A stretch of DNA of 40,658 bases from Marmoricola sp. Lineage in GTDB: Bacteria > Actinomycetota > Actinomycetes > Propionibacteriales > Nocardioidaceae. The translations under genes were made by a program, and so were the position numbers. Of the stretch, positions 32,162 to 34,759 are shown in pieces. Each line of letters opens with the position of its first letter. The stretch's first letter is position 1. The notes under the pieces were generated by a model. The model ran no database searches, had not been told where the DNA came from, and was given only the letters and a program-made list of their open reading frames with translations. Location: the NCBI RefSeq assembly GCF_025965085.1, contig NZ_JAOPXP010000194.1, positions 1 through 40,658 of the forward strand. The letters run 5' to 3'.

Positions 32162-33688
32162 TCAGAGGTCGTGGAACGTCTCGATCTGGGCGCCGATCTC
32201 GTTCAGCCGGTCGGCGAGGCCCTCGTAGCCACGGTGGATGACATACGTCGAGCGCAGCACCGACGTGCCCTTAGAGGCGAGCATCGCCAGCAGGATCACC
32301 ACGGCCGGACGCAGCGCCGGCGGGCACACGACCTCTGCGCCCGACCATCGCGTAGGTCCCTCGATCATCACCCGGTGCGGGTCCATCAACGTGACCTTGC
32401 CGCCGAGCTTGTTGAGGTCGGTCAGGTAGATCGCCCGGTTCTCATAGACCCAGTCGTGGAGCATCGTCTGGCCCTGCGCGGTCGCCGCGATGATCGCGAA
32501 GAACGGCAGGTTGTCGATGTTGAGGCCCGGGAACGGCATCGGGTGAATCTTGTCGATGGGGGAGCGCAGGGTCGAGTGCAGGGTGCTGACATCCACCAGC
32601 CGGGTGTGCTTGTTCGCGGCCAGGTACTCCTCGGAGAGCCGGTAGCGGAAGCCCATCTCCTCGAGCACTGCGAGCTCGATCTCCAGGAACTCGATCGGCA
32701 CCCGCTTCACGGTGATCTCGGAGTCGGTCACGATCGCCGCAGCCAGCAGCGACATGGCCTCGATCGGGTCCTCGCTCGGGGAGTAGTCGACGTCGACGTC
32801 GATCTCCGTGCAGCCGGTGACCACGAGCGTCGTGGTGCCGATGCCCTCGACGCGGACGCCGAGCTTCTGCAGGTAGAAGCACAGGTCCTGGACCATGTAG
32901 TTCGAGCTCGCGTTGCGGATGGTCGTCGTGCTGTCGCACAGCGCGGCCGCCATCAGCGCGTTCTCGGTGACGGTGTCGCCGCGCTCGATCAGCACGATGG
33001 GCCGGTTCGGCACGATGCCCGTCTGCACCAACGCGTGGTAGCTTCCCTCGGTCGCCTTCACCTGGAGGCCGAAGGGACGCAGTGCAGTCATGTGGGGTTC
33101 GACGGTGCGGCTGCCGAGGTCGCAGCCGCCGGCGTACGGCAGCTCGAAGTCGCTCATCCGGTGCATCAGCGGGCCGAGGAACATGATGATCGAGCGGGTA
33201 CGGCGGGCCGCCTCCGCGTCGATCCTGCTCAGGTCGAGGTTCGGCGGCGGGATGATCTCGAGGTCGTTCTCGGCGTTGAGCCAACGGGCCCTCACGCCGA
33301 TGCTCTCCAGCACCTCAAGAAGCCGGTTGACCTCCTCGATGCGCGCGACCCGGCGCAGCGTCGTACGCCCCCGGTTGAGGAGGGACGCGCACAGCAGCGC
33401 CACGCCGGCGTTCTTCGAGGTCTTGACCTCGATGGAGCCGCGGAGCGTGGTGGGTCCTGTGACGCGCAGGTGCGTGGGTCCCTGGCCGATGCTGACCAGC
33501 GGAGCCTCCAGCGCCTCGCCGATGCGCGCGAGCATGTCGAGGGAGAGGTTCTGGTGCCCGCGCTCGATGCGGTTCACCGCGCTCTGGCTGGTGCCGAGCA
33601 CCTCGGCCAGCTGCTGCTGCGTCCATCCACGATGCTTGCGGGCGTCGCGGATCAGGTTGCCGATTCGTCCCAGATAGCCCTCAGTCAC
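32162..33688 (-). CDS. HTH-fused UDP-GlcNAc 1-carboxyvinyltransferase (MurA-like)
   Basis: 508-residue fusion of an XRE-type helix-turn-helix (about residues 7-60, GWTQQQLAEVLGTSQSAVNRIERG) to an EPSP-synthase-fold MurA domain. The MurA part retains the active-site lysine region VKTSKNAG and the loop cysteine C189 in GGCDLGSRTV, matching Cys115 of the E. coli enzyme, so it may transfer enolpyruvyl from PEP to UDP-GlcNAc. The GTG at 33688 is six bases after a TACAGT -10 element and gives VTEGYLGRIGNLIRDARKH. A perfect inverted repeat adjoins that -10, suggesting self-regulation. Similar fusions exist in Streptomyces next to an ordinary murA, so this may be a second or regulatory MurA rather than the essential one. 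Confidence 0.88.
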   Translation of the reverse strand: MTEGYLGRIGNLIRDARKHRGWTQQQLAEVLGTSQSAVNRIERGHQNLSLDMLARIGEALEAPLVSIGQGPTHLRVTGPTTLRGSIEVKTSKNAGVALLCASLLNRGRTTLRRVARIEEVNRLLEVLESIGVRARWLNAENDLEIIPPPNLDLSRIDAEAARRTRSIIMFLGPLMHRMSDFELPYAGGCDLGSRTVEPHMTALRPFGLQVKATEGSYHALVQTGIVPNRPIVLIERGDTVTENALMAAALCDSTTTIRNASSNYMVQDLCFYLQKLGVRVEGIGTTTLVVTGCTEIDVDVDYSPSEDPIEAMSLLAAAIVTDSEITVKRVPIEFLEIELAVLEEMGFRYRLSEEYLAANKHTRLVDVSTLHSTLRSPIDKIHPMPFPGLNIDNLPFFAIIAATAQGQTMLHDWVYENRAIYLTDLNKLGGKVTLMDPHRVMIEGPTRWSGAEVVCPPALRPAVVILLAMLASKGTSVLRSTYVIHRGYEGLADRLNEIGAQIETFHDL

Positions 33689-33694
33689 CGCGCG

Positions 33695-33700
33695 ACTGTA
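33695..33700 (-). promoter_or_regulatory. Leaderless -10 element of the HTH-MurA gene
   Basis: TACAGT on the minus strand, six bases, then GTG at 33688. Two bases are shared with the inverted repeat at 33699-33716. Confidence 0.6.
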
Positions 33701-33716
33701 TCTCACATATGAGATA
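33699..33716. promoter_or_regulatory. Perfect inverted repeat, likely HTH-MurA operator
   Basis: TATCTCA-CATA-TGAGATA, perfect 7-bp arms around four bases, in the 54-base divergent region. It covers the region just upstream of the murA-like -10 and lies 26 bases before the alcohol dehydrogenase start. The low GC and symmetry mark it as a protein binding site. XRE-type proteins bind sites of this size. Confidence 0.65.
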
Positions 33717-33742
33717 GGTCCCCGTCTGAGACAATGCGTGTC

Positions 33743-34759
33743 ATGCGAGTCACCACCATCCACGGCACGCGCGACATCCGCCTCGAGGATCGACCCAAGC
33801 CCACGATCGACGCCCCGACGGACGCCGTCATCAAGGTCTCGGCCAGTTGCATCTGCGGCTCGGACCTGTGGCCCTACCGCGGCGAGAACACGATCACGCC
33901 CGGCGACACGATCGGACACGAGATGATCGGGATCGTCGAGGAGGTCGGGAACGACGTGCGGTCCTTCCGGCCGGGCGACTTCGTCATCGCGCCGTTCTGC
34001 CACAGCGACAACACCTGCCCGCACTGCCGGGCTGGGATGACGTCCGCCTGCGCGAACGGTGGCTTCACCACCGGGGGGCAGGGGGAGTACGCCAAGGTGA
34101 CCCAGGCCGAGGGCAGCCTGGTGAAGACCGACGGCGTCCCCGACGCCTCACTCCTGCCCTCACTGCTCACTCTCTCCGACGTCTTCCCGACGGGGTGGCA
34201 CTGTGCCGTCGCGGCCGGCGTCAAGCCCGGGTCGACCGTCGTGGTGGTCGGCGACGGGGCGGTCGGCCTCTGTGCCGTCCTCGCCGCTGCCCAGATGGGC
34301 GCCGAGCGGGTGGTGGCGATGTCACGGCACGAGGACCGCCAGAAGATCGCGCGGCAGTTCGGCGCGACCCACATCGTGGCCGAGCGTGGCAAGGAGGGCG
34401 CCGACCGCATCAAGGACCTGACGGACGGCGTCGGCGCCGACGCCGTTCTCGAGTGCGTCGGGACCCACGACTCCATGCTGCAGGCCTTCGGCTGCGCCCG
34501 ACCCGGCTCGACCGTGGGCTTCGTGGGAGCGCCCCACGGCGTCGAGCTCCCGCTGCGCCGGATGTTCACCAAGAACATCGGGCTGGCCGGCGGCATGGCT
34601 CCCGTGCGCACCTACCTTCCTGAGCTGCTCGAGCTCGTCACCTCCGGCGCCGTCGACCCCGGGCTCGTGTTCGACGCCCGGATGCCGCTGGAGCAGGTCG
34701 CCGAGGGCTACCGCGCGATGGACGAGCGCCGAGCCATCAAGGTGTACCTCGAGGTCTAG
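33743..34759 (+). CDS. Zinc-dependent alcohol dehydrogenase family protein
   Basis: 338-residue medium-chain dehydrogenase with GroES-like and Rossmann domains. The catalytic-zinc region is CICGSDLWPYRGEN and GHEMIGIVEEVG. A reduced structural-zinc loop CPHCRAGMTSAC is present. The nucleotide-binding loop is VVVVGDGAVGLCAVLAA at about residues 166-182. It closely resembles the subgroup often annotated as threonine or sorbitol dehydrogenase-like; the substrate cannot be read. ATG 33743 (MRVTTIHGTRDIRLED) fits the family start better than ATG 33734 and lies seven bases after GACAAT, a possible leaderless -10. It shares the operator with the HTH-MurA gene. Confidence 0.88.
   Translation: MRVTTIHGTRDIRLEDRPKPTIDAPTDAVIKVSASCICGSDLWPYRGENTITPGDTIGHEMIGIVEEVGNDVRSFRPGDFVIAPFCHSDNTCPHCRAGMTSACANGGFTTGGQGEYAKVTQAEGSLVKTDGVPDASLLPSLLTLSDVFPTGWHCAVAAGVKPGSTVVVVGDGAVGLCAVLAAAQMGAERVVAMSRHEDRQKIARQFGATHIVAERGKEGADRIKDLTDGVGADAVLECVGTHDSMLQAFGCARPGSTVGFVGAPHGVELPLRRMFTKNIGLAGGMAPVRTYLPELLELVTSGAVDPGLVFDARMPLEQVAEGYRAMDERRAIKVYLEV

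Follow-up and report, generated by a model that had tools for sequence, protein, structure and literature searches.

Upstream of genes that encode MurA fused to an N-terminal DNA-binding domain (HTH-MurA), a palindrome is kept in many actinobacteria and, judged by sequence comparison, is a conserved operator of those genes and no local curiosity. MurA, the UDP-GlcNAc enolpyruvyl transferase, catalyzes the first committed step of peptidoglycan synthesis, and its amount is controlled by proteolysis in some bacteria. In the window studied here (the whole stretch of DNA that was analyzed, 40,658 nucleotides from Marmoricola sp.), the N-terminal XRE domain of the enzyme is predicted to recognize an 18-bp palindrome over its own -10 box (Table 1). 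Autoregulation of HTH-MurA is strongly supported by the comparison, with repression as its most likely sign, and we regard autorepression through the fused helix-turn-helix (HTH) domain as the best reading and a highly likely one. When the protein is abundant, it would settle as a dimer on the palindrome and block RNA polymerase, so the enzyme would keep its own level constant. The binding of protein to site, the dimerization, and the sign of the control are features that we infer from sequence.

Table 1. Features of the HTH-MurA locus, in window coordinates.
Feature	Position	Strand	Remark
HTH-MurA gene, MurA2-type, 508 aa	32162..33688	-	GTG start; probably leaderless
MurA (enolpyruvyl transferase) domain, residues 76-495	32204..33463	-	EPSP_synthase match
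Cys189 codon	33122..33124	-	at the E. coli MurA Cys115 position
XRE/HTH_3 domain, residues 13-64	33497..33652	-	E 2.2e-15
Recognition helix, residues 35-42 (QSAVNRIE)	33563..33586	-	conserved with the operator; rewritten in seven site-less loci
Candidate -10 element TACAGT (TA-N3-T) of the HTH-MurA gene	33695..33700	-	inferred; sixth-position T kept
Candidate operator palindrome TATCTCA-CATA-TGAGATA	33699..33716	.	perfect repeat, conserved before homologues
Divergent zinc-dependent alcohol dehydrogenase	33743..34759	+	neighbor; linkage not conserved

The initial annotation described an XRE-MurA fusion with its Cys loop and Lys region intact, and closer analysis bears this out (GGCDLGSR with Cys189; SKNAG with Lys92). 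The HTH_3 match scores 56.9 bits, above the gathering score of 23. An AlphaFold model of the protein (mean pLDDT 87) matches MurA structures, among them 1naw with a TM score of 0.93 by target length, and places the XRE helices at residues 5-20, 24-31, 35-42, and 50-59. All six catalytic residues checked are present, namely Lys92, Asn93, Cys189, Arg194, Asp392, and Arg486, which we take to be the counterparts of Lys22, Asn23, Cys115, Arg120, Asp305, and Arg397 in E. coli MurA. These six, together with Arg165 and Arg460, are kept family-wide; Lys, Asn, and Cys occur in 94 of 96 family rows, and in L239 and L245 as well once these are read in the correct frame. Canonical MurA (TIGR01072) has the same fold and shares the catalytic Lys, Asn, Cys, Arg, Asp, and Arg. 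HTH-MurA differs from it by the added XRE domain, by a residue other than Asp at the E. coli Asp369 position (PPALRP), and by a score below the TIGR01072 equivalog cutoff (304.7 versus 392.7 bits); it does reach the cutoff of the subfamily model NF006873 (317 versus 297).

The repeat noted upstream of this gene is real: its two 7-nt arms are perfect inverted copies separated by 4 nt, and it lies 10 nt from the GTG start (33688). It is the sole match in the 3.55-Mb genome at up to two mismatches, where a reversed-pattern control gives 0. At three mismatches, six further places appear versus three in the control, none of them on contig C178, and a wider regulon in the window's own genome was rejected on these counts; the palindrome is the only recurrent site found for HTH-MurA. 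The claim that the repeat touches the -10 element also fits: on the minus strand, TACAGT (33700-33695) begins with the last two bases of the palindrome, TA, and lies 6 nt before the GTG. This spacing has the geometry of a leaderless promoter, and the HTH-MurA gene is probably leaderless. A generic sigma-70 scan of both strands of 33600-33850 found no promoter, so the -10 box rests on conservation.

Upstream regions of homologous fusions offered a comparison that the initial annotation had itself proposed. From at least 591 matched stretches, we kept 80 homologous loci (73-95% identity) from Nocardioides, Marmoricola, Aeromicrobium, Mumia, Kribbella, Brachybacterium, Stackebrandtia, Streptomyces, and some metagenome-assembled genomes. 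All 80 genes are immediately preceded by the palindrome or a close variant of it, while the flanks vary. The best arm score is 14/14 in 40 loci, 13 in 38, and 12 and 11 in one each. A broader set of 137 loci comprises the window, these 80 (L002-L081), and L127-L182; the last group includes all 29 order genomes that lack a pattern match, so the set is enriched for weak or absent sites. Here 50 loci reach a best score of 14, 53 reach 13, 11 reach 12, 14 reach 11, two reach 10, and seven stay at 7-9. Chance palindromes were rejected as an explanation, as 2,740 single-base shuffles of the upstream sequences never exceeded 11/14 (a score attained in 9 shuffles, with 10 attained in 45), versus 114 of 137 loci at 12-14. 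Because shuffles do reach 10-11, such scores taken alone are weak evidence, and genera g9 and g13 have sites of this weak kind (11/14).

From the 130 sites scoring at least 10, 126 had enough flanking sequence, yielding 123 unique sites in which positions 2, 6, 13, and 17 of the 18 are invariant. Most columns flanking the palindrome carry less than 0.5 bit, and 119 of the 123 retain the sixth-position T of TA-N3-T. The right arm is followed 9-12 nt later by an in-frame start in 113 of the 114 loci scoring at least 12 (8 nt in L156); some of these loci have an additional, earlier in-frame GTG or TTG. Covariation between the arms beyond column conservation was not detected (719 matches versus a permuted mean of 718.5), so the symmetric variants in L074 and G711 are anecdotes. 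In L074, a single case, both arms of the operator are changed (TATCGCATATATGCGATA) and the recognition helix reads TTQSV in place of TSQSA. A search of 197 family genomes for a second case of TATCGCA-N4-TGCGATA found it in one, which is apparently the L074 genome itself.

Site and recognition helix are also lost together. Across 157 loci, 155 of them distinct (duplicates L013/L179 and L045/L175), the strict Q-S helix occurs in 148, all of which keep a site scoring at least 10/14. The nine others comprise seven site-less loci (L144-L148, L149, and L169; scores 7-9/14), in every one of which the helix TSQSA-VNRIE is rewritten, and two that keep the site, L048 (QPA) and G711 (QGA); L048 has a 13/14 site despite its changed helix. 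Twenty of the 157, drawn from the class, have sites of 11-14/14 and a Q-S helix or, once, Q-G. The repeat is thus kept before homologues and missing where the recognition helix has been rewritten. The site-less loci belong to genus g16 (five), genus g12 (one), and family f9 (one), and they fall in three places in a tree of the MurA domain. Other fetched members of g12 retain helix and site, and both are present in the f9 relatives G667 and G711. In the tree, G068 and its intact relative G019 form a pair (support 100/100); support is weak for the fork that unites the five g16 rows (83/22), and the tree leaves several deep forks open. In the g16 proteins, the catalytic residues inspected are retained. 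In G255 (L239), the helix is rewritten and the operator absent, but the gene carries a frameshift near residue 386, so this joint absence may be decay.

The association of site and helix bears on the question of which protein reads the palindrome. The Streptomyces members, 17 of the 80 loci at 73-74% identity, carry the palindrome and by similarity and their aconitase neighbor appear to correspond to MurA2 (SCO5998; sven5810/vnz_28735); in L060, the aconitase gene lies upstream on the other strand, as in SCO5998/SCO5999 (PMC12161575). Published control of MurA2 involves other factors. It is a BldM-WhiI target (PMC4125116), a SigB-dependent promoter has been described at murA2 (PMC8346170), and a predicted DmdR1 site is common to murA2 and aconitase (PMC12161575); the accessible portions of these reports mention neither an HTH domain nor self-control. 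MurA2 overexpression did not reproduce the whiI-overexpression phenotype in exploration (PMC11005364). Binding by BldM-WhiI and the SigB promoter lend some weight to the view that a regulator other than the fused HTH domain recognizes the conserved site. The BldM-WhiI motif, however, is described as non-palindromic in the available text, and the absence of the site tracks rewriting of the fused helix in three places in the tree, which makes a separate regulator most unlikely. A related palindrome, TATCTCGATGTCGAGATA, occurs 218-1,868 nt before the gene in 12 of the 80, every one of them from Streptomyces (L060, L061, L063-L068, L071, L075, L079, and L080); in L060 it adjoins the divergent aconitase gene.

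Recognition by the fused domain is compatible with either sign of control, as binding followed by activation of transcription predicts the same conservation. Yet the site shares two bases with the -10 element and occupies the sequence immediately upstream of it, a placement typical of repression. We therefore consider activation very unlikely and retain autorepression.

The self-repression proposal had included a second element, an operator shared with the divergent alcohol dehydrogenase, and here the comparison parts from it: autoregulation draws strong support, but shared control of the dehydrogenase is not conserved. In the window, the palindrome lies 26 nt from the dehydrogenase ATG (33743), and a candidate -10 element picked by eye, GACAAT (33730-33735), would put its -35 on the right arm; both are in line with a shared operator. 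A dehydrogenase homologue lies upstream in 34 of the 80 loci, divergent in all 34, and its distance from the palindrome varies from 26-110 nt in 31 loci to more than 1,500 nt in three. The other 46 have no dehydrogenase match (E ≤1e-20) in the upstream sequence searched, which extended up to 3 kb (less than 3,000 nt in L008, L020, L037, L049, and L078). These 46 include L002 and L003, the nearest relatives, which have the palindrome and no dehydrogenase. The palindrome was accordingly rejected as a dehydrogenase operator. Outside the window's genome the link appears incidental, since it occurs in only 34 of 80 loci and is missing from the nearest relatives, and coordinated control of both genes from one operator is improbable; dehydrogenase co-regulation in the window's own genome is possible.

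Genome surveys place gene and site in a wider context. HTH-MurA was found in all 117 order genomes, and the site, at one mismatch or fewer, in 88 of them, nearly always once. Among the 75 order sites listed, 70 (in 69 genomes) sit 10-50 nt before the HTH-MurA match, and the remaining five all have one mismatch. The 29 genomes without a pattern match divide into six with no site and 23 with a diverged site scoring 10-12; G039 has a pattern match but reaches just 11/14 within 400 nt before its HTH-MurA match. In a sample of the phylum, 12 of 296 genomes carry the gene. Nine of these have the site (up to one mismatch) beside it, G298 and G124 have 12/14 sites, and G255 has none; a one-mismatch pattern somewhere in 42 of the 284 gene-less genomes represents the chance background. 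The gene is present in 52 of 197 genomes in a sample of the class. G114 has two HTH-MurA copies (contigs C1 and C5), each with the palindrome, possibly as an assembly duplicate (7% contamination).

In many of these genomes no other MurA is detected. At E ≤1e-60 with the murA profile, HTH-MurA is the only MurA-type match in 68 of the 117 order genomes, all of them in f2 and in genera g2, g3, and g4 of f1, and 49 have a match above the murA cutoff. Extra murA-profile matches at E ≤0.001 in 23 genomes are weak (about 19-54 bits) and are probably AroA. Its place as the sole MurA in 68 genomes implies that HTH-MurA provides the MurA step there, a prediction from gene content, and it must be essential where no second MurA is detected. 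Unlike HTH-MurA, the best-scoring canonical MurA carries Asp rather than Cys in 13 of 13 order genomes; among second canonical copies, those of six f4 genomes have Cys in all six.

In the window's genus, HTH-MurA and canonical MurA occur together in three of three genomes. The canonical MurA of the window's own genome (L260, contig C178:2580-3833) carries Asp where E. coli MurA has Cys115 (GGDAIGSR). We rejected the idea that this copy stems from contamination, as both other sampled genomes of the genus have two MurA matches; the G+C content of C178 (0.686 over 12 kb versus 0.695 for the window) also opposes it. Eight f4 genomes (G004, G008, G011, G015, G018, G022, G026, and G029) have three MurA-type genes each. 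In six of the eight, the operator keeps an intact right arm but differs at two or more positions of its left arm. In several f4 genomes, two of the three MurA-type genes are found near each other, and one of the pair has Asp, the other Cys.

Enzymes that regulate transcription in response to a substrate or effector, known as trigger enzymes, include PutA, BirA, and NadR. HTH-MurA resembles them in that its enzyme is joined to a DNA-binding domain predicted here to control transcription, including that of its own gene; it differs in that their effector responses are known, whereas HTH-MurA is known here from its sequence. The titles and abstract openings listed in a search of the trigger-enzyme literature contained no MurA member, and those listed for HTH-MurA self-regulation, a coverage that mostly excludes subscription journals, contained no report of it. 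The initial annotation suggested metabolite sensing by the enzyme, and the ligand state of the MurA domain may alter DNA binding, so that the promoter would track demand for peptidoglycan precursors; UDP-GlcNAc, a PEP adduct on the Cys, the UDP-MurNAc feedback complex, and fosfomycin were considered as ligands. Consistent with this, the fusion is kept in 117 of 117 order genomes, though with the helix rewritten in six; it retains the Cys that is Asp in the best canonical MurA of 13 order genomes; and titles of PDB entries show Cys-type MurA with covalent PEP and UDP-MurNAc. Against it, the interdomain linker (residues 63-68) is modeled at pLDDT below 50, giving no sign of rigid coupling, and the Cys is not specific to the fusion, being found in the second canonical MurA of the six f4 genomes. 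We consider ligand control a tentative possibility. A narrower version, in which the sole MurA of whole families would act as a feedback sensor, with the XRE domain binding its operator more or less tightly according to a Cys-dependent state locked by PEP/UDP-MurNAc, is unlikely.

Autorepression itself can be examined in nature: where the enzyme has been kept but helix and operator are gone, natural cases make the model directly testable. If the feedback-sensor reading were true, one protein would be enzyme, sensor, and repressor of the committed peptidoglycan step, and fosfomycin would also change HTH-MurA transcription. More broadly, HTH-MurA seems to regulate its own transcription, as predicted here, and because no other MurA is detected in 68 of the 117 order genomes, those organisms would rely on the fusion for an essential step that is also a known drug target.
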